Positions 833 to 18,584 of a stretch of 64,000 bases of DNA are shown in pieces. Location: the NCBI RefSeq assembly GCF_014023125.1, contig NZ_CP048914.1, positions 248,001 to 312,000 on the forward strand, read 5' to 3'. Positions within the stretch are counted from its first letter, which is position 1. Every line of letters begins with the position of its first letter. The notes beneath the pieces were generated by a model. That model was not told the origin of the DNA, did no database searches, and worked only from the letters and a program-made list of their open reading frames with translations. The stretch is from Candidatus Xianfuyuplasma coldseepsis. Lineage in GTDB: Bacteria; Bacillota_I; Bacilli_A; Izemoplasmatales; Izemoplasmataceae. Position numbers and translations under genes: made by a program.

Positions 833-1299
833 AATCCTTCACCTTCTTTTGCGGCTCGTTTCACCGCATTAATAATCATATTGTAGCCCGTGCAACGACA
901 AAGATTTCCGGACAATCCAATTTTAATATCAAGATCACTAGGATGAGGGTTTTGTAATAACAATCCGTGGGATGCAATTAACATACCCGGTGTGCAAAAT
1001 CCACATTGGACAGCACCTTCTTTACTGTACGCCGCTTGTAATAGTTGCCCCTGTTTACTAGCAACCAAACCTTCGATCGTCACAACGGATTGATTCATAA
1101 TTGTTCCAACAGGAACCAAACAAGAGTTGACAACCCGATCATTGAGCAACACCGCACAAGCACCGCATTCTCCTTCACCGCATCCTTCTTTGGGTCCGGT
1201 GAGTTTAAAATCATGACGAAGAACATCCAACAATCGTTTCGTTGGATCGATGTCAATGGTGACGTCTTTATGATTTAGTTGAAAGGTAATTTTACTCAT
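826..1299 (-). CDS. Molybdenum hydroxylase [2Fe-2S] subunit (set 1)
   Basis: A 157-residue small subunit that passes electrons from the molybdenum site to FAD. It has both expected domains: a plant-ferredoxin-type cluster site with GCGEGECGACAVLL near residues 39-52, and an alpha-helical second cluster site with CGFCTPGM and LCRCTGY. Length and motif order match the XdhC/CoxS family. The ATG at 1299 lies inside the 3' end of the Mo-subunit gene (8-base overlap), and its own stop overlaps the FAD gene start, so all three subunits are coupled. The name XdhC for this subunit should not be confused with the XdhC maturation factor encoded at 7507-8352. Confidence 0.93.
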   Translation of the reverse strand: MSKITFQLNHKDVTIDIDPTKRLLDVLRHDFKLTGPKEGCGEGECGACAVLLNDRVVNSCLVPVGTIMNQSVVTIEGLVASKQGQLLQAAYSKEGAVQCGFCTPGMLIASHGLLLQNPHPSDLDIKIGLSGNLCRCTGYNMIINAVKRAAKEGEGLW

Positions 1300-3379
1300 C
1301 CTGCATCAACTCCATAATATATTCGGGAGTAACCGGTATTTTTGTGATGCGTTTATGAATCGCGTTTTCAATCGCAAGGGCAACAGCTGGGGCACCACCA
1401 ACTAAGGTTAACTCCCCTGCTCCTTTCGCACCATAGGGTCCTAATGGGTACGGATTATCCATAAGATAATTGTGCATAATCGGTGTATCAACTGTTGTCG
1501 GAATGATATAGTCCGTCACATTTTTATGTTGAATAATTCCGTCTTTATGCGTCATTTTTTCCATATAGCCATAGCCAAGGCCCTGTAGTTGGCCTCCGTC
1601 GGCTTGACCAAGAATGATTTGTTCATCGATGGCTTTTCCGACATCGTATATATTCCATTCTTCTAGTACGGACACTTCATAGGTGCGTTTATCTACGGCC
1701 ACTTCAACAACGTTGATTCCCCATGAATACGCGGGATAGGCATCCCCGGTGAAGGTTTCTTCGTCCCACTGAATGTACTTGGGTTGTTGGAAGTGTTCGG
1801 TCGTGTGTTGCGCTGTATGTGGTTGCCATGCTTCTTTCATCTTCCGGGCTGCTCGTGCAACCAATCCTCCGACAATCATCATTGTTCGCGATGCAACTGT
1901 CGGTCCCGAATCGGGAACGTAATTGGTATCTGGATGATTGTAGATGACTTGTTCGATGGGAATATCCAAAATCGTTGCAACCAGTTTTCGCATCGTTGTT
2001 TTGACACCTTGTCCCATATCGACTGCCGCAATTAAAATCGTTACTTCATCGGCTTCGTTCTTATCCAATTCTACAACGGCTTTGATGTGCGTTGCTTCCC
2101 CACTACCGGTAAAGCCACAGCCATGTAAGAACCAACTCATTCCAATGCCACAAAACGCATTGGATGTTTCATAGTGTTTTACTTTATCCGTGTAGTTGGA
2201 TTCTTGTAGTATCTTTTCCAGCATTTCCGGCATGATGATCGGATCACGGAAGGTACCATTGGTACTTGTTTTATCATGTTGTTTCGCTAAATGTTGTTGT
2301 CGTAATACCAACGGATCGATACCAATTTCTTTGGCGACATGATGAATAAACATTTCGATGGCAAACAACATCTGCGGAGCCCCAAAACCACGAAACGCTC
2401 CATTGGGAACCGTGTTGGTTTTAAAGACATCCCCGGTCACATCGAGATGATGGATGGTATAGGCGCCGGTGGATGCGATGAGCGCTCGGGAAAGAACAAC
2501 TCCTGACAATCCGATATAGGCCCCACCATCAATTCCGACGATACTTTTCATACCGATAATGTCTTGATCTTTTACATAGGCTTCTAAGGTAATTTTCGCC
2601 GGATGACGTTTTGTGGTTACATGCATATCTTCTTCACGTTCATAGATTAGACTAATCGGTTGTTGTAGTTTGTGAATTGCCACTGCTAGTTGACAGGCAA
2701 TCAGGGATGGAAACTCCTCTTTACCACCAAAGGCACCACCCACAGTAGCTTGTTTTACACGAACATAGTCATTATCACAATCTAAGATGGATATCACCGC
2801 ATTCTTGACATAATACGGACATTGAATACTTCCGACAAGCGTAACTTGACCCGCATCGTAATAACCGATCATCCCTTGTGGTTCAATATAAAGCTGTTCT
2901 TGATATGGGGTTTCATAGGAAATAGTGATCGTTCGATCACTCTCTTCTTTGGCTTTCTGAATATTTCCCTTATCAAAATGATAGTGAATCACGGAATTGG
3001 TAAAGTCAAATTCCGGTGTTAGGGGTTCATATTCAATCTGTACATGTTCGACTAAATCGGCTACGATGTCTTTATCCGGACCAATCACAAGGGCGATAGG
3101 CTCCATGTAATGTTCGACTTGATCGACGGCGAAAACCGGCCAATCCTCAAAAATGATCTTGATAAAATTGACACCGGGTATATCGGTATGATCAATGATA
3201 TAATAGCCGTCGGGAAGTGATGGATATTGCCGTGATACAATTTGGGCTTTTGGATGCGGACTCCGCACTGTTTTCGCATGCAACATTCCGTCAATATGAA
3301 GATCACTGATATATGGTGTTGCCCCAGATGACTTCACATGTGCATCTACTTTTTCAATCGATGTGCTTATATCTTTCAT
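1292..3379 (-). CDS. Molybdenum hydroxylase, molybdopterin-binding subunit (set 1)
   Basis: A 695-residue catalytic subunit of the xanthine dehydrogenase/aldehyde oxidase family. It begins with the a/b hammerhead domain (SSGATPYISDL, about residues 16-26) and contains GGAFGGKEE and AFRGFGAPQM, which line the molybdopterin pocket. Near the C-terminus is GAKGAGELTLVGGAP, whose Glu is the usual catalytic base. It is clearly shorter than the second copy in this operon (769 residues). The ends look intact, so the difference comes from internal loops. I chose the ATG at 3379 over a TTG at 3382 because a GAGGTGA ribosome site sits at suitable distance only from the ATG. Likely substrates are hypoxanthine, xanthine or a related N-heterocycle; this is inference from the neighbours. 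Confidence 0.9.
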   Translation of the reverse strand: MKDISTSIEKVDAHVKSSGATPYISDLHIDGMLHAKTVRSPHPKAQIVSRQYPSLPDGYYIIDHTDIPGVNFIKIIFEDWPVFAVDQVEHYMEPIALVIGPDKDIVADLVEHVQIEYEPLTPEFDFTNSVIHYHFDKGNIQKAKEESDRTITISYETPYQEQLYIEPQGMIGYYDAGQVTLVGSIQCPYYVKNAVISILDCDNDYVRVKQATVGGAFGGKEEFPSLIACQLAVAIHKLQQPISLIYEREEDMHVTTKRHPAKITLEAYVKDQDIIGMKSIVGIDGGAYIGLSGVVLSRALIASTGAYTIHHLDVTGDVFKTNTVPNGAFRGFGAPQMLFAIEMFIHHVAKEIGIDPLVLRQQHLAKQHDKTSTNGTFRDPIIMPEMLEKILQESNYTDKVKHYETSNAFCGIGMSWFLHGCGFTGSGEATHIKAVVELDKNEADEVTILIAAVDMGQGVKTTMRKLVATILDIPIEQVIYNHPDTNYVPDSGPTVASRTMMIVGGLVARAARKMKEAWQPHTAQHTTEHFQQPKYIQWDEETFTGDAYPAYSWGINVVEVAVDKRTYEVSVLEEWNIYDVGKAIDEQIILGQADGGQLQGLGYGYMEKMTHKDGIIQHKNVTDYIIPTTVDTPIMHNYLMDNPYPLGPYGAKGAGELTLVGGAPAVALAIENAIHKRITKIPVTPEYIMELMQDE

Positions 3380-3388
3380 CAAATCACC

Positions 3389-4459
3389 TCACTTGAGGGC
3401 ATGAGTTGGGCATTTGGAGATGCACAACCCACAACCAAAACATTTCTCTGGGTTGATCGTAATGATGTCTTCCATGGTAATGGCAAAATAGGGACATATC
3501 TTCTCGCAAAGCATACATTCCGTGCATTTTTCGACATCCAGTTCAGGAATACGGGGTTCATAGGTCACGGGGTTCTTTAGTACGGTTTGTTGTACATCTT
3601 CGATACTTGTATAGCCATATTTTTTTAATACTTTTGGCAAATCATTAATTATTTTCTTGTATAATTGCTTTCCTTTGATCAAAGCACCACTCAACATTTG
3701 AACAGCATCGGCTCCAGCTAACATAAACTCAATTACATCTTCAGCTGAGGCAATCCCCCCTACACCAATAACGGTAAAGTCCGGCATTACTTGTTTGATG
3801 GTGTACACAGTGGCTTGCGCAAGATGTTTAATCGCTGGTCCACTCATCCATACAAAGCCACTCTCTGGTGCATACTCAATTTGTCTTGTTTTCGCATTGA
3901 TTTTCATTGTCGGACCGAGGCTATTGATGGCTACGAGTCCACTCGCTCCTGCAGCTTGTACTGCCTTTGCAAATGCGACCGGGTCAGGAATATGAGGACT
4001 GATTTTCATATAGATCGGTTTTTCTGTATGAGACCGAATCGTGCGTACTGTATCAGCAATCACATCAAGGTTCTTACCGACATAGTGGGTCGATACTTCA
4101 AAGGCATCCGCAAACGGATCCAGTTTCGGAATCAGATACTCCATATCCTCTTTGGTATATCCGACACTGATAATTAACGGTCGTGTTTTTTGTTTCACAA
4201 GGTTGGGTAAGAACGATTCGATCCAGGTAGATGCTGCATGTTCGGACCATAATTCAGAGTTCATAACGAATGTACGATCGCCATAAATACAAGGACGAGG
4301 AATTTGGGGTTCTTTGGTGGATATGGTTTTGGTGACAAGGGCACCAACCCCTTCACCTTGTAAGAATAGTAGTTTTTCATCATCCCCGACAATGGGTCCA
4401 CTCGCAGGCATCAGTGGATTGTCCAATTGCAGTCCATCAATGGTTACTTTTAGGTTCAT
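3389..4459 (-). CDS. PreA-like dihydropyrimidine/dihydroorotate dehydrogenase-family protein with two 4Fe-4S motifs
   Basis: A 356-residue protein with an N-terminal flavin TIM barrel of the dihydroorotate/dihydropyrimidine dehydrogenase class (NPLMPASGPIVGDDEKLL near the start, VIGVGGIASAEDVIEFMLAGA further on). A C-terminal ferredoxin module follows, with CTECMLCEKICP and CFGCGLCISKCP. This is the layout of PreA, the catalytic half of NAD-dependent dihydropyrimidine dehydrogenase. No PreT partner is in view, so its electron partner may be another flavoprotein. The ATG at 4459 overlaps the TGA of the SsnA-like gene (ATGA), which favours it over upstream codons. In this operon it could reduce or oxidise a pyrimidine-like or hydantoin-like ring; the exact reaction is not determined by sequence. 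Confidence 0.85.
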   Translation of the reverse strand: MNLKVTIDGLQLDNPLMPASGPIVGDDEKLLFLQGEGVGALVTKTISTKEPQIPRPCIYGDRTFVMNSELWSEHAASTWIESFLPNLVKQKTRPLIISVGYTKEDMEYLIPKLDPFADAFEVSTHYVGKNLDVIADTVRTIRSHTEKPIYMKISPHIPDPVAFAKAVQAAGASGLVAINSLGPTMKINAKTRQIEYAPESGFVWMSGPAIKHLAQATVYTIKQVMPDFTVIGVGGIASAEDVIEFMLAGADAVQMLSGALIKGKQLYKKIINDLPKVLKKYGYTSIEDVQQTVLKNPVTYEPRIPELDVEKCTECMLCEKICPYFAITMEDIITINPEKCFGCGLCISKCPTHALK

Positions 4460-5751
4460 TGTTTCCCTTCTTTCGCTATCTTGTCCCATACACGCAGGGC
4501 TGCGTTTTGAGCTTGTTGATAGATGTCTTGTTCTTCCATTTGTAAATTTCTATTACGTAACACTTGTTGGCCATTTATAAATACATTCGATGGGTTCCAA
4601 TTGGAGAATAACCCAAAGAACAAATGACCAAACATATTGTTTGTTGTCATGGGTGTTGGTGGTTGATACACAATCAGTTGTAAATCTGCGGTATAACCTG
4701 GTTGAACTCTACCGAGTGAAACACCCAATCGACGAGATGCGTACTGATAGGTCGAATCAATCATATCAATCACATCTTGAAAGTTGAATCCTATAGGTGA
4801 TGTTGATTGATGATGCATCGCGTAGTATACAGCTTGATACTCACTTGTGATTTGGGTGCTAATGCCATCATTCCCAATGATAACGGGGATTCCTCGTTGT
4901 TTGAACAGATGGTAATCTGGTAAACCGACACCATTGTTCATATTTGAGGTGACATTAAACGCCATAACTGCTTTACGCTTTTTAATAATATCGAGTTCGT
5001 CGTCACTAAGGTAGATTCCATGCGCAAGAATACTGTCTTCTCGAACCAATCCAAATTGATCAAGACGCTTGACAACTCGACATTGATGATGTTTAAGCGT
5101 GTGTTCCTGATCCTCGATGCTTTCTGCGACATGAATATGAATCGGTTGATGGGGAAATGTTTCTTGGATTTGTTGCAATGTTTTGTCGGACAACGTTAAC
5201 GATGCATGAAGTCCGACGAGGCCAGCAGTTGTCGCTGACTGTGAATCAACGTACTGTTGATTTTCCTTAATACAATCATCCACATCAAAGCGATCACTTG
5301 TTTCAAAGCAGAGGATTTTTCGCAAACCAATTTGAGTTAGTGCTTTATTGATTGCATCCAATGATCCTTGAATCGTACCACTGGCATGATGATCAATAAT
5401 CGTCGTAGTCCCATGCTTTACATGTTCGATCCCATTGATCATCGCACAATAATAGACGGCATCGAGATCAAGATGTCGATCCAATTTCCACCATAATTGT
5501 TCCAGAAGTTCTTGAAATGATGTGGGGTTAAACGGTACGGTCATTCCTCTGGCAAATGTGCTGTAAATATGGTTGTGCCCATTGATGAAACCTGGCATCA
5601 ACAACTGATGTTCTCCATCGATAATGTAGTCATAATCACCAGAGAAATCCGTCATTGCGCCAACGGCTTTAATCGTCTCATCAAAGACCACAAACCCCGA
5701 AGGAATGTAGTGATGAAAATCATATATTTGAATGTTCTTTATCGCAATCAT
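4456..5751 (-). CDS. ssnA: SsnA-like metal-dependent amidohydrolase/aminohydrolase
   Basis: A 431-residue amidohydrolase of the chlorohydrolase/guanine-deaminase branch, closest in feel to SsnA. The metal-binding HxH is in GHNHIYSTFARGMT (about residue 58 on). A further His lies in IHIHVAESIEDQEH, another in LAHGIYLSDDE, and the catalytic Asp is in IGNDGIST. Such enzymes hydrolyse exocyclic amino groups of purines or related rings, and ssnA-type genes commonly sit beside molybdenum hydroxylase and hydantoinase genes. A GAGGTGA ribosome site precedes the ATG. The stop is shared with the start of the PreA-like gene. Substrate is inferred from context only. Confidence 0.85.
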   Translation of the reverse strand: MIAIKNIQIYDFHHYIPSGFVVFDETIKAVGAMTDFSGDYDYIIDGEHQLLMPGFINGHNHIYSTFARGMTVPFNPTSFQELLEQLWWKLDRHLDLDAVYYCAMINGIEHVKHGTTTIIDHHASGTIQGSLDAINKALTQIGLRKILCFETSDRFDVDDCIKENQQYVDSQSATTAGLVGLHASLTLSDKTLQQIQETFPHQPIHIHVAESIEDQEHTLKHHQCRVVKRLDQFGLVREDSILAHGIYLSDDELDIIKKRKAVMAFNVTSNMNNGVGLPDYHLFKQRGIPVIIGNDGISTQITSEYQAVYYAMHHQSTSPIGFNFQDVIDMIDSTYQYASRRLGVSLGRVQPGYTADLQLIVYQPPTPMTTNNMFGHLFFGLFSNWNPSNVFINGQQVLRNRNLQMEEQDIYQQAQNAALRVWDKIAKEGKQ

Positions 5752-5760
5752 AGGGTCACC

Positions 5761-7053
5761 TCATCGCTTAACTAATTGTCCAATATGGGGAATAAATGAT
5801 TGATGTTTGACGACAAATTCCCCACGGGATATCGTTGATATGACGTCTCCATTTACCTCAAAACCTTCGTATATGGTGTAATCGCATGCACCATGTCCAA
5901 GGGTAATTGTACGTGGTTGTTGACGGTAGATGAATAGATCCGCATCACTACCGATGGCAATCACACCTTTTCGTGGATACAGATGATGGGCTTTGGCGAC
6001 ATTGATGGTCATTTTATCAATGATGTTGATACCACATTTGGTGAACAATATCCGGAAAGATTCTTCGACGCCGTTCACCCCAAGCGGTATGTTTTGAAGT
6101 AGTGTATGTTTCTTGTCAGTCTGTAGAAACGTACAATGATCGGTACCAATGGTATCGATGTTGTCGATATTGGCAATCAACAACTCCTGTTCTTGCTGTG
6201 ATCGTAATGGGGGAGCCATGGTAAAGAGATATCCGTGTACGCGGTTTAACACAGAATGGTTAAACATCACATAATGGGGACACGTCTCAACGAGAAATTG
6301 CGTATGCAAAATATCGGAATACTGCTCGGATAACGCTTGAATCGTATTCCCACTCGAACAGTGCACCATGTATAGTGTTCCACCAGTCTCCCGAACAAAA
6401 CCAGCAAGCTTCAATGCTTCATTTGTCTCCGCTTCAGTTGGTCTAGCTTGTGGTAGTGATTGATAGGGTAGCGATGGGTCTTTATTGATCATCTCATCGT
6501 TTTCAATATGAGCCGTAACGGTAAATCCGTGTCGTTTAGAATATCGTAACAGTTCTTGTATTTCCGGATCATACGTTCGGCGATTGGATTCGGAATAGGT
6601 CGTAAAGATTTTCACCGTTTTGAGGTGATTGTCGTTCATCGCCTGGACAATTTCTTCGATGCCTAAGGGATTACGCAAGCAAGCATGAAATGCATAGTCA
6701 ATAACACTGTTTTGTGCCTGCTGTTTACGTTCTTTGTAGGTTTGATGTAATTCGGAAGCCGTTTGCGCTGGCTGCAAGAAATCAATGATTGTGGTTACAC
6801 CGCCAAAGGCGGCCGCTTTTGTACCATGGTAAAAATCGTCCTTGGAGGATTGTGTCCCAAGATCGAGTTCAAAATGCGTATGGGGATCAATGATTCCTGG
6901 AAGAACCAGATCACCTTCACAATCATAGGTTTCTTTGGCCTCATATACATCTGTAGTAATGGCAGATATGATACCATCTTTGATGTATATGTTTGTCGGT
7001 ACAAATTGGTTGTTTTGATAGACTAGGCCATTGATTATACGAAGATCATCCAT
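5761..7053 (-). CDS. hydA: Dihydropyrimidinase / hydantoinase family protein
   Basis: A 430-residue cyclic-amidohydrolase-type enzyme that would open dihydropyrimidine- or hydantoin-like rings in the cytoplasm. The expected metal ligands are visible in order: HTH in IDPHTHFELDLG, a Lys in TVKIFTTYS that is the candidate for the carbamylated bridging lysine, His in TAHIEN, His in MVHCSSG, and Asp in IGTDHC. Length is near the family norm (about 450). It starts at an ATG preceded by GAGGTGA and lies 9 bases from the SsnA-like gene. With the deaminase, hydroxylases and PreA-like protein it makes a plausible route that oxidises and then opens heterocyclic rings. Confidence 0.88.
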   Translation of the reverse strand: MDDLRIINGLVYQNNQFVPTNIYIKDGIISAITTDVYEAKETYDCEGDLVLPGIIDPHTHFELDLGTQSSKDDFYHGTKAAAFGGVTTIIDFLQPAQTASELHQTYKERKQQAQNSVIDYAFHACLRNPLGIEEIVQAMNDNHLKTVKIFTTYSESNRRTYDPEIQELLRYSKRHGFTVTAHIENDEMINKDPSLPYQSLPQARPTEAETNEALKLAGFVRETGGTLYMVHCSSGNTIQALSEQYSDILHTQFLVETCPHYVMFNHSVLNRVHGYLFTMAPPLRSQQEQELLIANIDNIDTIGTDHCTFLQTDKKHTLLQNIPLGVNGVEESFRILFTKCGINIIDKMTINVAKAHHLYPRKGVIAIGSDADLFIYRQQPRTITLGHGACDYTIYEGFEVNGDVISTISRGEFVVKHQSFIPHIGQLVKR

Positions 7054-7067
7054 GGACTCACCTCACG

Positions 7068-7538
7068 TTACACGATGTCGTAAGAAGTTATTGAAAAGGT
7101 GCTGACGACATCGTCAATTAAGTCTTTACGGACCGTTATATATGCTTCTATATCATGTTTAACAATAAACTGTAATAGCTTCGCAAAACATTTGTGTTGT
7201 AATTCTAAGAGACCAATTTCATCGAGGAAAATTGGTGATGCTCCTTGTTTGATACTGTTGATTATCTCTTGTTCAATATCTTGTAAAACGTCCTTGAAAA
7301 AGAGATAGGGACCGATTTGACAAGCAATCTCTCGATCTGTATCATGATAAAATTTCTCATGCATGACAAAGGGTCGTGTGGATAAATCACGCAATCGTAG
7401 TAGATCATACCCATGAACGGTTTGATAGTGCATTCGCTTGACACTGATGAATCCATCCCCTTGTTGGTGTTGGTGATACAAGTGTAATAGTCGACTGGAT
7501 TTCCCACTATTTATTGTCCCAGTAACGATATGAATCAT
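7068..7538 (-). CDS. Small P-loop NTPase (nucleoside-triphosphatase-like)
   Basis: A 156-residue P-loop protein with Walker A GTINSGKSS at residues 7-15 and a Walker-B-like LDEIGLLEL around residue 105. This fits the small NTPase group often called nucleoside-triphosphatase (THEP1-like). Its N-terminus overlaps the 3' end of the XdhC-type gene by 32 bases, which points to coupled expression and a job in the same process. A role in assembling or inserting the molybdenum cofactor is a reasonable inference but not shown by sequence. No transmembrane segment is seen. Confidence 0.75.
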   Translation of the reverse strand: MIHIVTGTINSGKSSRLLHLYHQHQQGDGFISVKRMHYQTVHGYDLLRLRDLSTRPFVMHEKFYHDTDREIACQIGPYLFFKDVLQDIEQEIINSIKQGASPIFLDEIGLLELQHKCFAKLLQFIVKHDIEAYITVRKDLIDDVVSTFSITSYDIV

Positions 7539-8352
7539 GTTGCACCAGCTCCCTCATATGTTTGTGGCCTTTCTTCTGATGGGATACAGCCAACATTTCA
7601 CTACAGATGGAAATCGCAATTTCTGCGGGTGAACCACCACCGATATCAAGTCCAATCGGGGAATAGAAGTTCGATAAATCAATATCTTTGGAAAAGGCTT
7701 CATAGGTTTTATCCAAATAGTCCATCAACTTTTGCATCGAACACAACATCCCAATGTATTTCAGTTGAATCTTTTGTTTGATGACTTGATGGATGACGTT
7801 GTAATCGTACTTATGCGACGGGGTGCATACAATCACCATACTGTCTTCTTGTAATCCGTGTTGTTCAATGTACTGGGCAAATGGCATATGAACGAGTTCA
7901 TCGGCACCATGAAACTGATCGATGACGGCTTGGCGTTCATCGATGACGGTGACATGAAAATTCATCGTTTTAAGAACGGTAGTGACCGCTTGGCCAACAT
8001 GTCCCGCACCAAAAATATAGACGTATTCACTCGGTCCAATGTATTCAAAAAACAAGGTTACTTGGCCGCCACATGCCATCGGTAATGTTTCGGTATTGGG
8101 GATGATTTTACCTTCATCCAGCAAATAGGTTTTGGTTTCACTCTGTTTTGTTTGGAAAATCGTTTTACAGTATTCTCTCGCTTCGTACTCTAGGGCGCCA
8201 CCACCGACGGTACCACTGGCTTCATTGTGTGCGGTAACCAGCATCTTTTTACCAACTTCGACGGGGCCTTCACCACGTTTTTCCACAACAGATACCACCA
8301 CTATTGGGATTCCTTTATTCTTGTAGTCAGAGGTCATCTGGTAAATGTTCAT
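7507..8352 (-). CDS. xdhC: XdhC/CoxI-family molybdenum hydroxylase maturation factor
   Basis: A 281-residue protein of the XdhC/CoxI family, which binds molybdenum cofactor, promotes its sulfuration and hands it to the hydroxylase. The N-terminal part has the family segments VSVVEKRGEGPVEVGKKMLV, VGGGALEYEAR and PMACGGQVTLFFEYI. The C-terminal part is a Rossmann fold with YIFGAGHVGQAV and the conserved IGLDIGGGSPAEIAISI. The start has a strong GGAGGAG site 7 bases upstream. One factor for two hydroxylase sets implies that it serves both. Confidence 0.92.
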   Translation of the reverse strand: MNIYQMTSDYKNKGIPIVVVSVVEKRGEGPVEVGKKMLVTAHNEASGTVGGGALEYEAREYCKTIFQTKQSETKTYLLDEGKIIPNTETLPMACGGQVTLFFEYIGPSEYVYIFGAGHVGQAVTTVLKTMNFHVTVIDERQAVIDQFHGADELVHMPFAQYIEQHGLQEDSMVIVCTPSHKYDYNVIHQVIKQKIQLKYIGMLCSMQKLMDYLDKTYEAFSKDIDLSNFYSPIGLDIGGGSPAEIAISICSEMLAVSHQKKGHKHMRELVQHDSYRYWDNK

Positions 8353-8365
8353 GGGGACTCCTCCT

Positions 8366-8989
8366 CTATAAGGTATAGGTTAATACGAGTGCAACAAGAA
8401 ATAAGAACGATGCCAAACTGAGTCGATGTGAGACTTGAGGAAGGGACACTTTTACATGGTCATTGATGACCACAAACAAGGTTCCAATCGCTCCACTAAG
8501 TAGTCCCGTGATGATGATAAAGTCGGCGATTAATGCCGGTGTGGCAAGATAGGGTGCGAGATTCCCAGTTGTCGCATATTGGAATCCCATCCACATCACA
8601 AACAACCCACGCCAAGCAATACTGGCGATTGGAAATGCGAGTAGTTTAGGAACTTGTTTATCACTGGTAAGTAGGGAGACCACAACGACAACCATCAATG
8701 CTTCCATCACGATTGAGATCATCGGATTGATCGTTTTAAAAATCGAATATTGAGGCAAGAAGAAATTCACGGATTTGATTGTTGCGGCAACAACACCAAT
8801 CCACAGCAATGCTCCTTTTGATCCGGTGACGTTATACGCACGGTACAAAATCAATCCAGCAATAGGAAAGAGAATGCTTCCAGCAATCGTTGCGGGTATT
8901 AAGTGTAAGACGTATCCAAGGGTTGCTTCCACGATTCCCCAGAGGGCTCCAAAGAAAAGTATTTGTACTATAAGTTTTTTATTCATCAT
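8366..8989 (-). CDS. Unknown multi-pass membrane protein of the Mo-hydroxylase operon
   Basis: A 207-residue, very hydrophobic protein with about six predicted membrane helices (for example residues 6-27, 34-52, 60-75, 88-106 and 188-206). I do not recognise a named family. Its ATGATG start overlaps the stop of the large Mo subunit (TGA inside ATGATG), so it is made together with the hydroxylase. Its size and lack of soluble domains recall small substrate-binding membrane subunits of vitamin-type importers, but no signature motif supports that. A transporter for a purine-like substrate is the most natural guess from position; a membrane anchor for the enzyme is another. Confidence 0.7.
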   Translation of the reverse strand: MMNKKLIVQILFFGALWGIVEATLGYVLHLIPATIAGSILFPIAGLILYRAYNVTGSKGALLWIGVVAATIKSVNFFLPQYSIFKTINPMISIVMEALMVVVVVSLLTSDKQVPKLLAFPIASIAWRGLFVMWMGFQYATTGNLAPYLATPALIADFIIITGLLSGAIGTLFVVINDHVKVSLPQVSHRLSLASFLFLVALVLTYTL

Positions 8990-11295
8990 TGTTCATCCTT
9001 TCGTAACATCGCAAGACGTATTTTTTCGGGTGTAATTGGTAACTCTGTAATCCGTACACCTACGGCATTGTATATCGCATTGGCGATCGCGGCTGGTGGG
9101 GTATCAATCCCAATTTCACCAACGCTTTTAGCACCAAATGGACCGGTTTCTTCATAACTTTCAGCAAATTCTGTTGTTAGGTTTTTTATTTCATGACGTG
9201 TGGGAATTAAATAACTGACAAAATCATTGGTGATGAGTCGTCCCGATTTCGAATACTTCACATCTTCATAAGAGGCCATTCCGATTCCTTGAACGATACC
9301 ACCTTCTACTTGTCCCCGGGCCAACATCGTATTGAGTGGCGTACCACAATCAACGATACTGGTGTAATTGTTGATGTCGTATTCACCGGTTTCGATATCA
9401 ATAGTTATATCGGCATATCCCGTCATAAATGGCGGTGGCGATTTGTGGCCAACATAACTCGATGTTGCCATTAACTGACGTTGATCATCGTTGTAATACA
9501 AGCGATTGGCTAATTCATTAATTGTTAATGACTGCGTATTTGCAATGAACATTGTACCATCAAACTCCACGTCATCCACATCTGCATCGAGACGTTTTGC
9601 GGCTTCTTCAATCATCATTTGCTTCATTTTCATAGCCGCCTTATAGACCGCATTTCCACTGACATAGGTTGTACTAGATGCATAAGCACCGGTATCAAAT
9701 GGCGTTAAATCACTATCGGATGAATACACAATCATGTGATCCATATCACAACCGAGAACTTCAGCAGCAATTTGAGCTAAGACGGTATCGCTTCCTTGGC
9801 CAATATCGGTAGCACCGATTAAGAGGTTGAAAAACCCATCGTCATTTAACTTGATGGTGGCACTTCCCATATCAATGTAGGGGATGCCACTTCCTTGCAT
9901 CGCAATCGCCATACCAATGGCGCGTCGTTTGGTTGGTGAAATTTGTTGATAGGGATAAATCTCATTCCACTTACTAACCTCGCGACCACGATGGAGACAG
10001 TACTCCAATTTACAACTATCCATCGTCATCGCAGTTCCTTCCGTTCCTTCACCCATGATGGCGAAAATTGGCGATGTTTCTCCTTCTTTCATCATGTTAT
10101 TATCACGGAACTCAAGGGGATCGATTCCAAGTTTCTCACAAAGGATATCAATGGCACTTTCTAAGGCAAAGTTTCCTTGGATTGCACCATAACCACGGAA
10201 GGCTCCGGCAGCGTTGTGGTTGGTATAGACAACATCACCATAGAAACGGACACTGTTGACTTTGTTGTAAAGTGGCAATACTTTACTACCTGCAACCATA
10301 AAGACGGTTAAGGCATGTTCACCGTAAGCTCCTGTATCACTTAAGACGTGACAATCGATGGCACGTAAGGTTCCGTCTTTGTCGGCACCAAGTGTCATCT
10401 TAATGCGCATTTTATGTCGTGTTGGACTGGCTTCAAACACTTCTTTTCGCGTGTAGACCATTTTTGCAGGTTTTCCAGTTCGCAAAGTAACAGCACTGAC
10501 AAGCATCTCTCCATGCAGCGATTGTTTTCCCCCGAAGCCGCCACCAACACGGGGTTTAATTACCCGGATTTTCGATAACGGTACCTCGAGTGTTTGGGAA
10601 ATAATCCGACGAACATGGAATGGTGTTTGGGTCGCACTGTACAAAACGAGTCGATTTTGGAAGTCAATGCGGGCATTTACCGTGTGGGGTTCCATCATCG
10701 CATGCATCTGTGCTTGCGTATAGAATGTTTCGTTAATTACCACATCACATTTCTTAAGCTCGGCTTCGACATCTCCTACTTCCATATGATAGCTCGCAGC
10801 AATGTTTCGTTTCGGTTCATAACCAATGGGGAACATCTCGTGAACTTCGTCTTCAGGATGAAGGACGACGTCATGATCTATGGCTTGTTCAAAATCAAGA
10901 ACGGGTTGTAATATGTCGTACTCTACCTCGAGTACATCCAGGGCTTGATCACAGAGTGCTTCAGTCTTCGCCGCAACACAGGCGACTTCATCACCGACGT
11001 GACGTACGTATTGATCCAAGACAAATTTATCGTGAGGAGATGGCTCTGGATATCCTTGGCCAGCTCGGGTAAAGGGAATCCGTTTAAAATCCTTATAGGT
11101 TAGTACTAGTTCAACACCCGGTATGGATAGGGCTTTATCGGTGTTGATGTGTACAATTTTTGCATGAGGATGAGGACTACGCAACACTTTTACAATCAAT
11201 GAGTTGGGTTCGGCAAGATCGTCAGTGTATGCAGGACGTCCCATCATTAACCCTTTACCATCAACGGATGGGATTGGTTGTTTAATTAGTTTCAT
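8986..11295 (-). CDS. Molybdenum hydroxylase, molybdopterin-binding subunit (set 2)
   Basis: A 769-residue catalytic subunit, the usual length for xanthine-dehydrogenase-type enzymes. The hammerhead domain begins near GRPAYTDDLAEPNSL. PRVGGGFGGKQS and AGAFRGYGAIQGN mark the pterin-binding core, and GPFGAKSVGEIGID near the C-terminus carries the conserved active-site Glu. The true start is the ATG at 11295, with GGAGG 7 bases upstream and an ATGA overlap with the Fe-S subunit stop; the reading frame extends further upstream but that part is antisense-like to the Fe-S gene. It forms a complete enzyme with the next two genes upstream. Whether the cofactor is selenium-containing cannot be decided here, since no selenium genes are in view. 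Confidence 0.93.
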   Translation of the reverse strand: MKLIKQPIPSVDGKGLMMGRPAYTDDLAEPNSLIVKVLRSPHPHAKIVHINTDKALSIPGVELVLTYKDFKRIPFTRAGQGYPEPSPHDKFVLDQYVRHVGDEVACVAAKTEALCDQALDVLEVEYDILQPVLDFEQAIDHDVVLHPEDEVHEMFPIGYEPKRNIAASYHMEVGDVEAELKKCDVVINETFYTQAQMHAMMEPHTVNARIDFQNRLVLYSATQTPFHVRRIISQTLEVPLSKIRVIKPRVGGGFGGKQSLHGEMLVSAVTLRTGKPAKMVYTRKEVFEASPTRHKMRIKMTLGADKDGTLRAIDCHVLSDTGAYGEHALTVFMVAGSKVLPLYNKVNSVRFYGDVVYTNHNAAGAFRGYGAIQGNFALESAIDILCEKLGIDPLEFRDNNMMKEGETSPIFAIMGEGTEGTAMTMDSCKLEYCLHRGREVSKWNEIYPYQQISPTKRRAIGMAIAMQGSGIPYIDMGSATIKLNDDGFFNLLIGATDIGQGSDTVLAQIAAEVLGCDMDHMIVYSSDSDLTPFDTGAYASSTTYVSGNAVYKAAMKMKQMMIEEAAKRLDADVDDVEFDGTMFIANTQSLTINELANRLYYNDDQRQLMATSSYVGHKSPPPFMTGYADITIDIETGEYDINNYTSIVDCGTPLNTMLARGQVEGGIVQGIGMASYEDVKYSKSGRLITNDFVSYLIPTRHEIKNLTTEFAESYEETGPFGAKSVGEIGIDTPPAAIANAIYNAVGVRITELPITPEKIRLAMLRKDEQ

Positions 11296-11744
11296 TGGTC
11301 GTCCTCCAGATAATGTAATATCGCTTCTTGTTGTCCATGATATCCGGTACAGCGACAGAGATTTCCAACCAAGAATGCTCGAATATCCGCATCTGATGGG
11401 TGGGGATTTTCTTGTTGAAGAGCATGAACACTTAAGGCTAGTGAAGGATTGCAATAGCCACACTGATCGGCACCGTTATGTCCCATGAACTCACTCAATC
11501 GTTCGGCCTCTTTTGCGATGCCTTCTACAGTCACTACCTCTTTGCCGTCAATGGAAGCGGAAAGTATGCTACAAGAAGGAACTGCTTTCCCATTTAATAG
11601 CACAGTACAAACACCACAACTTGTGGTATCGCAGCCACGTTTGACCGATACGATGTGATGGGTGCGTAAACTATCGAGTAAGTAATCGTTGGGATGTACG
11701 TCCCAGGTTTCTTCTTGATGATTTAAGATAAAGGTAACTTTCAT
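11292..11744 (-). CDS. Molybdenum hydroxylase [2Fe-2S] subunit (set 2)
   Basis: A 150-residue two-cluster iron-sulfur subunit. The ferredoxin-type site reads GCDTTSCGVCTVLL (about residues 38-51), and the second cluster uses CGYCNPSL and LCRCTGYHG. The Asn in CGYCNP replaces the Thr more common in this family, a difference also from set 1 (CGFCTP). The start has a GGAGGTG site, and both ends overlap neighbours by 4 bases (ATGA), so translation of the FAD, Fe-S and Mo subunits is chained. The two sets differ in sequence throughout, so they are not a recent duplication. Confidence 0.93.
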   Translation of the reverse strand: MKVTFILNHQEETWDVHPNDYLLDSLRTHHIVSVKRGCDTTSCGVCTVLLNGKAVPSCSILSASIDGKEVVTVEGIAKEAERLSEFMGHNGADQCGYCNPSLALSVHALQQENPHPSDADIRAFLVGNLCRCTGYHGQQEAILHYLEDDQ

Positions 11745-12535
11745 TGTTTACACACCTCCTTTAGTCCGCGTTTGACATAGACTTTAATGAGTAATTCACG
11801 GTATTCTTGTGAAGCACGAAAATTACTCGATACATGTATTTCTTCTTGGGCAATCTGTGCCGCCTGATCCATTACTTCATCCGTGATTGGTAAGTGGCTG
11901 TTGATGTATTCCATCGCTTTCGTAGCAATGACGGATCCTCCAGGACGAGCACCAATAGCAATCGTGCATGAATCTCCATTGACAATGGCTACATTCAATA
12001 CCGCAAAATCAATCGCTGTTTTCTTCACGTTATAAAAATAACCAGGGTAATTCGTTTTCGGAATTTTGATGGCTACCAAGATATCCTTTTCAACGTGTTT
12101 GGTGTTTAAAAAGTCCGCCAATGCCATCTCTTTATTGTGATAAAACACCAATGTCGCATTCATCGCTAGGAGTGGTGTAATGATATCACTGAACGAATAT
12201 TTTCCCATGATACTTCCGCCAATTGTAGCGATATTACGGACATTCATTCCCATAATCGAGTTCGCTGCTTTCGCCAAAATACCCTGGCAACATTCCTGGA
12301 TGATTGGACTGGTTTCTAACTGCCTTAGTGTCGTCATCGATCCAATAACAATATTATCATTCTGTTGTTCAATCGTGTGTAGTTGTAGTTCTGAGATATC
12401 AATGATGGTGTCGACGTTTCGGTTGGTTAACTTCAACCATGCCCCGCCACCCATGACCGTATTGTCATCGTTTTGAAGTAACAATTGATACGCTTCTTCC
12501 ATGGTCTGTGGTCGTTGATAGGCTTGAATTTTCAC
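11741..12535 (-). CDS. Molybdenum hydroxylase FAD-binding subunit (set 2)
   Basis: A 264-residue FAD-domain subunit. MGGGAWLKL near residue 28 and the segment NIATIGGSIMGKYSFSDI (about 100-117) mark the flavin-binding loops. The second loop lacks the NASPAGD form seen in set 1, so the flavin pocket may differ. It starts with GTG at 12535 in a GTGA overlap with the stop of the cytidylyltransferase gene, and its stop overlaps the Fe-S subunit start. The length is slightly short of the family norm. Confidence 0.88.
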   Translation of the reverse strand: MKIQAYQRPQTMEEAYQLLLQNDDNTVMGGGAWLKLTNRNVDTIIDISELQLHTIEQQNDNIVIGSMTTLRQLETSPIIQECCQGILAKAANSIMGMNVRNIATIGGSIMGKYSFSDIITPLLAMNATLVFYHNKEMALADFLNTKHVEKDILVAIKIPKTNYPGYFYNVKKTAIDFAVLNVAIVNGDSCTIAIGARPGGSVIATKAMEYINSHLPITDEVMDQAAQIAQEEIHVSSNFRASQEYRELLIKVYVKRGLKEVCKQ

Positions 12536-13098
12536 TCTACTTCACCCTTTCGTAATAACTGTTTCATATCGTGTTGATGATCAATGTCGTGGAGTATATT
12601 GGGATCATCTACTTGGATGTACTCGACGTCATATTGATCGCGAAATTCTTTTAAGTTGCTTGTAATAGGTTGGGCCAATAATTCATGATGAATCATCTCG
12701 GATATAAAGATTGGATGTCCTCGTCTTTGCTGATAAACGGGAACGCGAATCAGACCACTTCCGCGACACAACGTGTCAATGGTGGATGGTTTGACCGTTG
12801 GACAATCACCAGGAATAACCATGACATCCTGTGTTGCATGTTTGATCCCAGTTTGTACCGAACTAAACATACCCATTTCATAATTATCATTATGAACAAT
12901 TTGAACCGAAGGATGCGTTAAATATGGAAGAATATAGTCTGCTGAATAATGTCCACTAACAATTATGACCTTGTTTGAAAAATCTAAGAATGGTTGAATT
13001 GTATAATATAGAAGCGGTTTATCATTCATTAATTGTGCAAGTTTATTTTCCGAATAGCGCGATGATTTACCACCTGCAAGAACAACAATATCAATCAC
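12532..13098 (-). CDS. mocA: MocA-like molybdenum cofactor cytidylyltransferase
   Basis: A 188-residue nucleotidyltransferase of the MobA/MocA type. It carries LAGGKSSRYSENKLA (residues 7-21), where the Lys and Arg contact the nucleotide, and VIPGDCPTVKP, whose Asp would bind the metal. In this family MocA joins CMP to molybdopterin to give the cytosine dinucleotide cofactor used by xanthine-dehydrogenase-type enzymes, which fits its place as first gene of the operon. Translation begins with GTG at 13098; an excellent GGAGGTGA site at 13105-13112 is 6 bases upstream. Other MobA-like activities on nucleotide sugars cannot be excluded, but context argues for cofactor synthesis. Confidence 0.85.
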   Translation of the reverse strand: MIDIVVLAGGKSSRYSENKLAQLMNDKPLLYYTIQPFLDFSNKVIIVSGHYSADYILPYLTHPSVQIVHNDNYEMGMFSSVQTGIKHATQDVMVIPGDCPTVKPSTIDTLCRGSGLIRVPVYQQRRGHPIFISEMIHHELLAQPITSNLKEFRDQYDVEYIQVDDPNILHDIDHQHDMKQLLRKGEVE

Positions 13099-14013: not shown

Positions 14014-14772
14014 CTATTTTTTAACAGCGGCATTCACCAAGACCAAGAAACTGTCCGGATCTAAGCTGGCACCACCAACAAGTGCGCCATCGATATCGCT
14101 CATTGAGAGTAATTCATCAACATTTGCTGGTTTAACACTACCACCGTATTGGATACGCATGGTATCTGCGGTTTCCTCATCGTACAAGTCTCGAACGACG
14201 TTACGAATGGCTTTGATGGTATCGTTTGCCATTTCAGCGGTTGCGGTTTTGCCAGTACCAATTGCCCAAATAGGTTCATAGGCGATGACAAGTTCTTTCA
14301 CTTGTTCGCTTCCAAGTCCTTTTAAATCGGCAACAACTTGTTTTTTCACGAACGCATCGGTTTCACCAGCTTCTCTGGTTTCTAGCGATTCACCCACACA
14401 TAGAATTGGAGTGATTCCATAACGGAATGCTTGATGTAACTTCTTATTGATTGCAGCATCGGTTTCATTGTAGTATGCACGGCGTTCACTGTGACCAATG
14501 ATGACGTAGGATACGCCAACATCTTCAAGGAGTGGTGCACTGATTTCACCAGTATAAGCACCGCTATCCAAATAATGCATGTTTTGCGCTCCGATACGGA
14601 GATTATCTCCTTGACGTTTAACTAAATCACGTAACACAGGAGATTGCGCACATACAACACTTTCCACATATTCTTTTGAGGGAACTTTCATATTGACACT
14701 GTACACGAATTGCAATGCTTCATCGCGTGTTTTGTGCATTTTCCAGTTACCTGCGATAATCGGTTTTCTCAT
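14014..14772 (-). CDS. tpiA: Triosephosphate isomerase
   Basis: A 252-residue TIM-barrel enzyme that interconverts dihydroxyacetone phosphate and glyceraldehyde-3-phosphate. Catalytic residues are visible: Lys in NWKMHK (residues 10-15), His in IIGHSERR, and Glu in AYEPIWAIGTGK, followed by the phosphate-gripping loop. GGSVKP and the C-terminal DGALVGGASL complete the barrel. Its ATG directly follows the stop of the HPr-like gene, and it is the last gene of the pgk-HPr-tpiA operon. Confidence 0.97.
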   Translation of the reverse strand: MRKPIIAGNWKMHKTRDEALQFVYSVNMKVPSKEYVESVVCAQSPVLRDLVKRQGDNLRIGAQNMHYLDSGAYTGEISAPLLEDVGVSYVIIGHSERRAYYNETDAAINKKLHQAFRYGITPILCVGESLETREAGETDAFVKKQVVADLKGLGSEQVKELVIAYEPIWAIGTGKTATAEMANDTIKAIRNVVRDLYDEETADTMRIQYGGSVKPANVDELLSMSDIDGALVGGASLDPDSFLVLVNAAVKK

Positions 14773-15030
14773 TTAATTGTCTTCCTTACTTAAGAGTTTT
14801 TGTAGTTCCCGCATTACGTCTTCGGCATCATCACCCTCGGTAATGATTTGAAGATTTTCACCACTTGGAATCGCGAGCGACAACAATCCCAATAAGCTCT
14901 TCGCATCAATCACTGTGTGTTCATATACCACTTCTACTGTGGATTGATATTTATGAGCTAATGAGACAATTTTCGCCGCTAAACGGGCATGTAAGCCGCG
15001 GGTGCTGGTTAATGTGACTTCTAGTTTCAT
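14773..15030 (-). CDS. HPr-family phosphocarrier protein
   Basis: An 85-residue protein with the HPr fold pattern. The phosphorylatable His is in GLHARLA (about residue 15), where the usual Pro of HARPA is replaced by Leu. The regulatory Ser region KSLLGLLSLAI around residue 45 is kept. HPr carries phosphate from enzyme I to PTS sugar transporters, and in Firmicutes the Ser-phosphorylated form is the CcpA partner. No PTS permease is in the window. Its place between pgk and tpiA is unusual and suggests that production is tied to glycolysis, possibly as a Crh-like signalling protein rather than a transport HPr. Confidence 0.85.
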   Translation of the reverse strand: MKLEVTLTSTRGLHARLAAKIVSLAHKYQSTVEVVYEHTVIDAKSLLGLLSLAIPSGENLQIITEGDDAEDVMRELQKLLSKEDN

Positions 15031-16316: not shown

Positions 16317-16745
16317 TTAAACCATTGTGTAAACACTTTCTTTTTGTGAAAAATGATGAATATGAACCGCAAGCGCACTTGCTTGAGCAAGTCGTTTTTT
16401 AAAGAGTGATTTACTCATTGGAACTTCACAGGAGTTCCCACTAATAAATGTTATTTCGATCACATCGGCTTCCGTATGCCATTGATAGATATTTTGGACA
16501 TTGATTACAACACATTTGGGATGACGTAAAGCATGGGTTGTAATTAAAATAACTTTCTCGTTGATATACATGGGTGGATTTTGTGTGATATGGAGAATAT
16601 ATCGGGCTGCTTCCAACCGACCTTGAAGCGACGATCCATGTTGTAATGCCAAATTATTGATTGTATAAAAGAGACCTTGTGCACAGATTTCCTTGTGTTC
16701 TCCTTGAAGAAGGATTCCTGCTTTATGTCTTGTTATGAAGTCCAT
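16317..16745 (-). CDS. comK: ComK-like competence transcription factor
   Basis: A 142-residue protein that I relate to ComK by its pattern along the length: GSSLQGRLEAARYIL followed by a short helix-like stretch and NPPMYINEKVILITTHALRHPKC, then a strand pattern ending in EVPMSKSLFKKRLAQA. In ComK the corresponding segments read GSSYAGRKAG, KPPIMV and LPISYNSFENQ. ComK activates DNA-uptake genes in bacilli. The sequence is shorter than the Bacillus protein (192 residues), mainly at the C-terminus. I prefer the ATG at 16745 (GGGTGA site upstream) over an ATG at 16781, which has no ribosome site. Identity as a homologue is fairly safe; control of competence here is inference. Confidence 0.7.
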   Translation of the reverse strand: MDFITRHKAGILLQGEHKEICAQGLFYTINNLALQHGSSLQGRLEAARYILHITQNPPMYINEKVILITTHALRHPKCVVINVQNIYQWHTEADVIEITFISGNSCEVPMSKSLFKKRLAQASALAVHIHHFSQKESVYTMV

Positions 16746-16798
16746 TGTATCACCCAATATAGATACGGTTAGGGAATCCATTTTTCTTTATATTTGAC

Positions 16799-16823
16799 AA
16801 AAAAAAACACCCAAGCGGGTGTT
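16799..16823 (-). terminator. Terminator after the MsmK-type ATPase gene
   Basis: On the minus strand AACACCC-GCTT-GGGTGTT is followed by a run of T. It is a strong intrinsic terminator. Confidence 0.85.
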
Positions 16824-16827
16824 TTAT

Positions 16828-17925
16828 TTATTTCAAGCGTAATTCTGTTTCTGGATCGAAGAAATGAACAGTTTCCATATCGAATGCCAATTGAATGTCG
16901 TCACCGATGTGTAAGTCTGCACGCGCACTAACTTTCGCTGTTAATGTGTGATCTCCGATTTGGGCATGAATGTTGGTTTCGGCTCCGAGTAACTCGGCAA
17001 CGTCTACTTTCAACTTCACAATCGAATCTTTGAACTTCAATAGTTGTTCTTCTTGGTCATGAATGTTTTCTGGACGAACACCAAGAACAACTTCTTCATT
17101 GATTTTTTTGTTTTCTTTTAAGATTTTTAATTTGCTTTCCGGAACTTTTACAGAAATTCCTTCGCCTTTGAATGTATCTTTTTCGACTTTACCATAGATA
17201 AAGTTCATTGGTGGAGTACCGATGAATCCACCGACAAACATATTGGATGGATTGTCATAAATATCTTTTGGTGCTCCAACTTGTTGGATGTATCCATCTT
17301 TCATAACAACAATACGAGACGCCATGGTCATCGCTTCAATTTGGTCATGGGTAACGTAGATGGTTGTGGTTTCAATCCGTTCGTGAAGTTTGATTAACTC
17401 CGCGCGCATTTGAACCCGTAATTTTGCATCCAAGTTTGATAGTGGCTCATCCATCAAGAATACTTTTGCATCCCGTACAATAGCACGTCCTAATGCAACC
17501 CGTTGGCGTTGCCCACCAGATAATGCTTTTGGTTTACGGTCTAAGTATGGGGTTAATCCTAAAATATCAGCTGCGTTTTGTACGCGACGATCAATTTCGT
17601 CTTTTGGCATTTTCCGTAATTTTAATCCAAATGCCATATTGTCATATACCGTCATGTGAGGATAGAGTGCGTAACTTTGGAATACCATTGCAATGTTCCG
17701 GTCTTTTGGTGCAACATCATTAACGAGTACATCATCAATGTAGAGCTCACCAGCGGTGATTTCTTCTAATCCTGCTACCATCCGTAAGGTGGTGGATTTT
17801 CCGCATCCTGATGGACCAACGAAAACGATGAATTCTTTATCGCGAATTTTTAATGAAAAATCAAATACTGCTTGGACACCATTGTCGTATACTTTATCCA
17901 ATCCTTTAAATAATAGTTCTGCCAT
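16828..17925 (-). CDS. msmK: Sugar ABC transporter ATP-binding protein (MsmK/UgpC type)
   Basis: A 365-residue ATPase with Walker A GPSGCGKSTT (about residues 37-46), Q-loop FQSYALYPHM, signature LSGGQRQRVALGRAIV, Walker B VFLMDEPLSNLDAKLR and H-loop VTHDQIEAM. The C-terminal third is the TOBE/MalK-type regulatory domain (VLGVRPENIHD). Members with this architecture energise many different CUT1 sugar importers. The two permease pairs of the beta-glucan locus (28-37 kb) have no ATPase beside them, so this protein is the likely motor. It is transcribed alone, with TATAAT at 17964-17969. Confidence 0.93.
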   Translation of the reverse strand: MAELLFKGLDKVYDNGVQAVFDFSLKIRDKEFIVFVGPSGCGKSTTLRMVAGLEEITAGELYIDDVLVNDVAPKDRNIAMVFQSYALYPHMTVYDNMAFGLKLRKMPKDEIDRRVQNAADILGLTPYLDRKPKALSGGQRQRVALGRAIVRDAKVFLMDEPLSNLDAKLRVQMRAELIKLHERIETTTIYVTHDQIEAMTMASRIVVMKDGYIQQVGAPKDIYDNPSNMFVGGFIGTPPMNFIYGKVEKDTFKGEGISVKVPESKLKILKENKKINEEVVLGVRPENIHDQEEQLLKFKDSIVKLKVDVAELLGAETNIHAQIGDHTLTAKVSARADLHIGDDIQLAFDMETVHFFDPETELRLK

Positions 17926-17974: not shown

Positions 17975-18019
17975 AAGTACGGAATTATCCTATGTGCATT
18001 GTGCACAAAATCCGTACTT
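17975..18019 (-). terminator. Branched terminator after the PucR-type gene, overlapping the ATPase promoter
   Basis: The outer stem AAGTACGGA (17975-17983) pairs with TCCGTACTT (18011-18019). Inside lies a second hairpin, TGTGCA-TTG-TGCACA. A T run follows on the minus strand, and the TATAAT box of the ATPase gene begins only 6 bases further on, at 17964-17969. The inner inverted repeat could also bind a regulator of the ATPase gene. Confidence 0.7.
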
Positions 18020-18584
18020 AGAATTGATATAACATATAGATGGCATTCGCCCCTTTAAATGTTTTAACATTAATATGGGTTGCATCGATGAAGTTATCGA
18101 TTCGATAATTGAGCGTGTTGCGGTGCATATAGAGTTTCTTCGCACTGACTGAACTATTCATATTGTTGGTGATAAACTCACGCACAGTATGAATCACATC
18201 TGCATTGATTTGTGATTGAATATAATCTTTAACTGCTTGCTTGAACGATTCGTTTTGATAGAGTACCGCATACACGATCACATCCTCAAATTCTAGAATG
18301 CGTTGTGGCAATTGTTTGATGAATGACTTGCATTCTTCTTGAAGTGGAAACGGGGTCGTTGAATAGGGTTCTAAAATCATTGTGAACGGGGTTTTAAAAT
18401 CATCGACAAGCAGCATGTACAGCTCATCAATATCCAGTGGTTCTTCATTGTAATAATCTTCATCATACAAGGTGATTACATTGTCCTCTACGGTCTCCAC
18501 ATGAATCATGTCACTAAGAGATGACAATACCGCAATCAGTTCATCTGGGATGTGTTCTTGATAAATATATATACGACGAAACAT
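18018..18584 (-). CDS. PucR-type C-terminal HTH regulator
   Basis: A 188-residue protein whose last 60 residues match the PucR/CdaR C-terminal helix-turn-helix. The core is VSAKKLYMHRNTLNYRIDNF, a pattern (HRNTLxYR) typical of that domain. The first 120 residues are not recognised and lack the GAF-like or PucR-like sensory domains of the long members. PucR regulators control purine catabolism in bacilli, so a link to the heterocycle operon is attractive but unproven. It lies 11 bases downstream of the diguanylate cyclase gene and is probably co-transcribed. Confidence 0.75.
   Translation of the reverse strand: MFRRIYIYQEHIPDELIAVLSSLSDMIHVETVEDNVITLYDEDYYNEEPLDIDELYMLLVDDFKTPFTMILEPYSTTPFPLQEECKSFIKQLPQRILEFEDVIVYAVLYQNESFKQAVKDYIQSQINADVIHTVREFITNNMNSSVSAKKLYMHRNTLNYRIDNFIDATHINVKTFKGANAIYMLYQF

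Follow-up and report, generated by a model that had tools for sequence, protein, structure and literature searches.

The genome of Candidatus Xianfuyuplasma coldseepsis encodes a short protein of the ComK family together with ComEA, ComEC and a type IV pilus, the genes on whose presence the initial annotation had staked its interpretation; it has no match to DprA, and it belongs to an order, the Izemoplasmatales, in which comEA and recA often share an alternative promoter element. The comK gene lies in the window analysed here, a stretch of 64,000 nucleotides (positions 248,001 to 312,000 of contig NZ_CP048914.1). The interpretation preferred here, which falls just short of an even chance, is a competence-type programme under SigH and ComK that does without DprA and imports DNA, plausibly as a nutrient. 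The initial annotation, which had proposed a competence factor in a Mollicutes-like genome, was right in outline, the organism being a wall-less member of the Izemoplasmatales, and the K-box test that it suggested fails.

A short protein of the ComK family

The open reading frame identified as comK (Table 1) encodes a real ComK-family protein, as the initial annotation had supposed: in a Pfam profile search, the 154-aa frame that begins at an upstream ATG (16781) matched PF06338 with 53.1 bits (E = 4e-14), against a cut-off of 22.3. The start at ATG 16745, the one given in the initial annotation, yields 142 aa; it is preceded by GGGTGAT (16755-16749) and aligns with the starts of relatives. 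This frame is the sole PF06338 match in the whole genome (one contig of 1,958,905 bases), and among 14 control genomes only that of B. subtilis gave a match. An NCBIfam search of the same frame returned no credible match. Similarity to 21 relatives is low, 18-32% in the alignment, and P58, N82 and F100 are invariant across the 22 aligned short ComK sequences. An AlphaFold model built from seven sequences was set aside (mean pLDDT 41.4).

Residues 28-142 of the 154-aa frame align with positions 31-148 of the 152 in the profile, indicating that the N-terminal segment is missing; 12 residues follow the match at the C-terminal end, where the profile itself stops at 152 positions. ComK of B. subtilis is 192 aa long, and relative to it the C terminus appears short, by comparison of length rather than of sequence. 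To that extent the shortened C terminus of the initial annotation stands, and what the profile directly reveals is a short N terminus. At six loci of family f13 (L002-L007), ComK proteins of 147-164 aa match PF06338 from position 2-3, and their genes lie between dnaN-like and recF-like genes (neighbours named from sequence).

Short forms of ComK are known elsewhere. In both B. cereus and S. aureus a ComK2 protein that lacks the C-terminal part is described (PMC3128618, PMC12491500), the S. aureus protein being devoid of both the C-terminal helix and the N-terminal extra residues of ComK1 (PMC12491500). ComK2 is reported to lower comG expression under some conditions, namely overexpression of B. 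subtilis ComK for the B. cereus protein (PMC3128618) and strong oxygen limitation for that of S. aureus (PMC12491500), and B. subtilis ComK deprived of 25 C-terminal residues is reported to bind DNA with no activation (PMC3128618). The short ComK of X. coldseepsis may thus be an activator or a repressor, its shape fitting a ComK2-type repressor equally. Such a repressor would silence the DNA-uptake genes driven by SigH until the cell senses DNA or starvation, a possibility that we consider real but doubtful: both the N-terminal segment and, apparently, the C-terminal end are missing, as the model would have it, but no operator was found, and the genome contains no other ComK, hence no ComK1 to antagonise, whereas ComK1 coexists with ComK2 in B. 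cereus and S. aureus.

Gene neighbourhood of comK

Table 1. Features in and around comK within the window.
Positions	Strand	Feature	Basis or remark
14014..14772	-	Triosephosphate isomerase (tpiA)	Name read from sequence; same position in relatives
14773..15030	-	HPr-like protein	PF00381, 82.5 bits
15056..16249	-	Phosphoglycerate kinase (pgk), often found downstream of comK	Name read from sequence
16317..16745	-	Short ComK-family protein (142 aa)	PF06338; start placed by GGGTGAT and by comparison with relatives
16760..16788	-	Weak element AAGAAA-N16-GTATCTA, upstream of comK	Score 5.8, below control 90th percentile of 7.0; not significant alone
16804..16825	-	Hairpin resembling an intrinsic terminator, separating the msmX-like gene from comK	
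16828..17925	-	Sugar ABC-transporter ATPase (MsmX/UgpC type), often adjacent to comK	ORF and position in relatives; name read from sequence
18018..18584	-	PucR-type C-terminal HTH protein, upstream of msmX	PF13556, 42.6 bits
19771..21723	-	Transketolase-like gene (tkt), head of neighbourhood	Name read from sequence

The run of tkt, msmX, comK, pgk and tpiA is kept with small insertions in the four relatives that were read (G001, G002, G012, G019), three of which (G001, G012, G019) have, judged by size, a similar ORF in the place of the PucR-type HTH protein. The order msmX-comK-pgk is also present in members of families f3, f7, f12 and f16; at two loci of the same family (L025, L029) a transketolase-like ORF takes the place of msmX, and the comK loci of f11 and f13 have a different gene order.

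This conservation suits a different role, in which the short ComK would regulate its carbohydrate and energy neighbours (tkt, msmX, pgk, tpiA) and DNA uptake would be at most a side branch. S. aureus ComK is reported to raise, apparently by an indirect route, glycolysis genes among which are tpiA, pgk and tkt (PMC8938553), which agrees with this role. However, gene order is weak evidence of regulation and is lost in f11 and f13; the terminator-like hairpin separates msmX from comK, so that comK may have its own promoter; and in one relative (G012) comK is immediately preceded by a pilin-like gene (L100 8447-9370) that separates it from msmX. On balance, regulation of the carbohydrate neighbours is rather unlikely to be the main function of this protein.

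Distribution of ComK in the order and class

With PF06338, ComK was found in 84 of 150 genomes of the class; a profile of the 22 short ComK sequences, built from the same genomes that were searched, raised this to 98 of 150, including 76 of the 90 genomes of the order; a few of its matches span a stop. Named relatives with ComK comprise Candidatus Izimaplasma/Izemoplasma and Mycoplasmatota metagenome-assembled genomes (six loci). A genome of the same genus (G003) has PilB and ComEC and gave no ComK match. Low similarity to the relatives and the shortened ends would be expected of a vestigial ComK with no regulatory role left, but its presence in so large a part of the order and its conserved P58, N82 and F100 make this explanation very improbable. 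A survey of 58 genomes found ComK only in Bacillales (PMC1524751); ComK in the Izemoplasmatales would extend the family well beyond that order.

A strong PilB match is absent from 35 of the 76 ComK-bearing genomes of the order, several of them more than 90% complete, with a PilB fragment in two of the 35 (G015, G083), and ComK and PilB show no co-occurrence within the order (p = 0.56). The persistence of ComK in these 35 genomes, like its absence from G003, counts against the competence-type programme; the former would also favour its being a carbohydrate regulator. Across the 150 class genomes, DprA was matched in 2 of the 98 with ComK (one, G136, below the cut-off) versus 34 of the 52 without it, a Fisher p of 3e-18 that is overstated because the pattern follows clades.

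DNA-uptake machinery

The comEA and comEC genes are adjacent in this genome (L091 8437-11077). TIGR00426 and TIGR00361 were matched above their cut-offs, and TIGR01259 with 120.7 bits, below its cut-off of 152.35. A pil operon (L092) encodes, by profile, a PilB-type ATPase, PilC, a pilin, a prepilin peptidase and PilM, along with PilN/PilO-like proteins and additional pilin-like ORFs, these being recognized from sequence or by one more N_methyl match. The one strong match among T2SSE-family ATPases in the genome is PilB, for which type_IV_pilB was the best model (620.2 bits, below the cut-off of 675.65). No ATPase of ComGA size was found in this genome, and its only PilT-family match is the PilB gene, below the cut-off. 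A PilT-family match above the cut-off occurs in only G003 and G012 of the 61 genomes searched.

DprA (PF02481) has no match in this genome and was not found in 89 of the 90 genomes of the order, many of them incomplete, with a match in the remaining one. This system differs from competence in B. subtilis both in having a PilB-type ATPase instead of ComGA and in that DprA was not found. DprA takes part in transformation in other species (PMC3364868), and since it was not found here the interpretation of the genes as a transformation system is weakened.

ComFC was also sought in this genome, and TIGR00201 gave weak matches far below its cut-off, the better of them falling on an ORF of 178 aa that is flanked by tilS-like and ftsH-like ORFs and whose sequence suggests a hypoxanthine phosphoribosyltransferase (named from sequence); these candidates were rejected. 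Besides recA, a 366-aa frame at G000:C1:713983-714702 matches the RecA family weakly (68.5 bits).

A promoter element shared by comEA and recA

Sequences upstream of comEA in the family contain AAGAA[AT], 16 bases and GTA[CT][CT]AT, with a ribosome site immediately after. The element was spotted by eye upstream of comK and comEA, and a matrix was then fitted on 11 comEA upstreams, this genome excluded; comEA and comK are consequently not blind tests of it, whereas recA is. For recA, loci were taken by strength of RecA match from 76 genomes, with the promoter playing no part in their choice, and 28 of 30 loci gave a start; in a further set of comEA loci, 12 of 18 gave a start, three of which (L040, L049, L091) had previously been seen. 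A score of at least 12 was reached by 18 of the 28 recA upstreams, counts that are not independent since the genomes are related, by 6 of the 12 comEA upstreams outside the fit, and by 2 of 624 controls. The controls were upstreams from loci of the order and class, of which 7 of 629 matched; five of these proved to be comEA (L038, L049, L055, L093, L096) and were set aside. A shared alternative promoter element is thus present at comEA and recA in the order. Its consensus over 23 recA promoters is AAAG[AT]AAA ... GTATTAT, and the recA genes of G066, G034, G024, G062 and G022 score below 7. One of the two control matches is a pilB start in G009 (L121) with a full-scoring element (16.0).

The recA gene of X. 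coldseepsis has an exact match to the element and radC (PF04002, TIGR00608) has one with a single mismatch. At comEA the -10 is kept and the -35 lost (score 7.4; control 90th percentile 7.0); at comK the -35 and the spacing are kept and the -10 is lost (Table 1). Strong elements were found at 4 of 35 comK upstreams, all in one genus, g7, to which X. coldseepsis does not belong (four of the six g7 genomes scored, none of 29 upstreams elsewhere). The 35 were scored as sets of 22 and 13, the second giving 12 misses and one strong match (G029, whose locus is nearly the same as that of G040). Thus comK is linked to the comEA/recA element in one genus only, and this link in four genomes counts against a carbohydrate regulator.

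Genome-wide, the element with at most one mismatch occurs at 85 sites versus 65 for the reversed pattern, a mild excess. Five of the 85 are intergenic and precede a gene by 16-29 bases; the genes are recA, radC, those for surface-type proteins of 422 aa (L347 2863-4131) and 607 aa (L346 2017-3840), and a 215-aa ORF. A control pattern whose spacing was off (N17 followed by G) gave 62 matches versus 72 reversed, with one site before a gene in the 30 loci examined. The 215-aa ORF (L344 2185-2832, G000:C1 near 945,700) has no Pfam or NCBIfam match and contains a PD-(D/E)XK-like stretch recognized by eye.

A SigH-like sigma factor

Sigma-70 region 2 was matched five times in this genome. One of the factors, of 179 aa, is encoded between an rlmB-like gene and secE-nusG-rplK, and the order rlmB-sigma-secE-nusG recurs in G001, G003, G009 and G013, and largely in G058 (names from sequence). 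The neighbourhood of rlmB, secE and nusG is the place of sigH in the Firmicutes. The best NCBIfam match of the 179-aa factor is spore_sigH, at 56.7 bits far below the cut-off of 294.8; the sigma70-ECF superfamily was the only model passed among the matches listed.

The sigH loci of Lactobacillus sakei and S. aureus are described as organized like that of B. subtilis (PMC3364868). The SigH elements quoted in PMC8510167 are RNAGGAWWW and RNNGAATWW, whereas here the -35 is AAAG[AT]AAA and the -10 is GTA[CT][CT]AT, a difference of about one base each. The comEA/recA element is likely to be a SigH-type promoter, judging from its sequence; its spacing presumably agrees with that of SigH promoters. 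Both recA and radC are competence genes of streptococci.

In the regulons of SigH and ComX described for S. aureus, L. sakei and streptococci, as here, a sigma factor occupies the sigH place and com genes stand behind an alternative promoter (PMC8938553, PMC3364868), and in S. aureus SigH and ComK are reported to be jointly needed for competence genes (PMC8938553). The systems differ in that pil is preceded here by a promoter of TTGTAA/TATAAT type (read by eye), and in that DprA, strongly SigH-driven in L. sakei (PMC3364868), was not found here. In the same species SigH is reported to have raised recA only 2.7-fold (PMC3364868), which counts against the preferred interpretation, as does the low spore_sigH score.

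Search for ComK binding sites

The initial annotation had suggested AAAA-N5-TTTT boxes upstream of com genes, an expectation that failed: they are not above chance at comEA, pil or comK. A single exact box was found in the 22 pil upstreams, against 2.2 expected, a single one in the 9 comEA upstreams (0.7 expected) and none in the 23 comK upstreams (2.0 expected); with at most one mismatch there were 32 at pil (28.2 expected), 8 at comEA (10.2) and 14 at comK (21.5), some comK starts in these counts having been set by a rough rule. With no enrichment, AAAA-N5-TTTT was rejected as the ComK site here; a diverged site is possible, and no ComK binding site was found. The protein resembles ComK of B. 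subtilis in belonging to PF06338 and in being encoded alongside ComEA and ComEC, but differs in its length of 142 rather than 192 aa, in having no N-terminal segment and in the lack of K-box enrichment.

DNA uptake in a DNA-degrading order

Members of the order are reported to degrade DNA, and X. coldseepsis to be able to use it for growth, with xanthine dehydrogenase loci described (PMC8289736). A long run of ORFs at positions 1-13098 of the window was read as xanthine dehydrogenase subunits, a deaminase, hydantoinase-like enzymes and molybdenum-cofactor proteins, that is, as purine breakdown. Its xanthine dehydrogenase-type ORFs, read from sequence, fit the published loci, and the association of purine breakdown with DNA uptake, as the initial annotation had it, fits the published DNA-eating lifestyle (PMC8289736). 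In the relative Hujiaoplasma nucleasis zrk29, comE and comF are reported to rise with nucleic acids and, in situ, by up to 120-fold, glycolysis genes falling in situ (PMC10470597). The present system thus resembles DNA degradation in Ca. Izemoplasma in belonging to the same order, in growth on DNA, in xanthine dehydrogenase loci and in comE/comF induction (PMC8289736, PMC10470597), and differs from it in that extracellular nucleases and nucleoside uptake are described there (PMC8289736). The main text of PMC8289736 contains none of the terms competence, ComEC, pilus or DNA uptake; ComEC is mentioned for a holothurian relative in PMC7761423. Among CC-licensed papers in PMC, none combines Izemoplasma with ComK, and none of those listed in wider searches dealt with ComK or a SigH regulon in the order.

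In the competence-type programme preferred here, a short, ComK2-shaped DNA-binding regulator, acting with a SigH-type sigma factor, would modulate a competence-like response in the Izemoplasmatales, comprising import of single-stranded DNA by ComEA-ComEC, a PilB-driven type IV pilus, and recA and radC. We infer that SigH reads the element, that ComK acts on these genes and that the purpose is nutritional. The imported strand would serve as food and repair material rather than as a substrate for transformation, the more likely fate given that the organism is able to grow on DNA and that no DprA was found. In a more specific version, which we offer tentatively and consider unlikely as a whole, a SigH/ComK regulon would have lost its sexual output, there being no DprA, and would now serve feeding and repair, in which the pilus and ComEA bind DNA, ComEC imports one strand as a nutrient, recA and radC are expressed from the same promoter, and the short ComK sets the threshold.

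It has long been asked whether competence evolved for food, for repair or for gene exchange. Beyond comK itself, the analysis points to a competence-type promoter common to comEA and recA in an order whose members feed on DNA, and in a cultured organism that can grow on DNA and possesses ComK, ComEC and a SigH-like promoter at recA, without detectable DprA, the food hypothesis would be directly testable. In the order of this wall-less deep-sea bacterium, the comEA/recA promoter hints at competence for eating DNA rather than for gene exchange.
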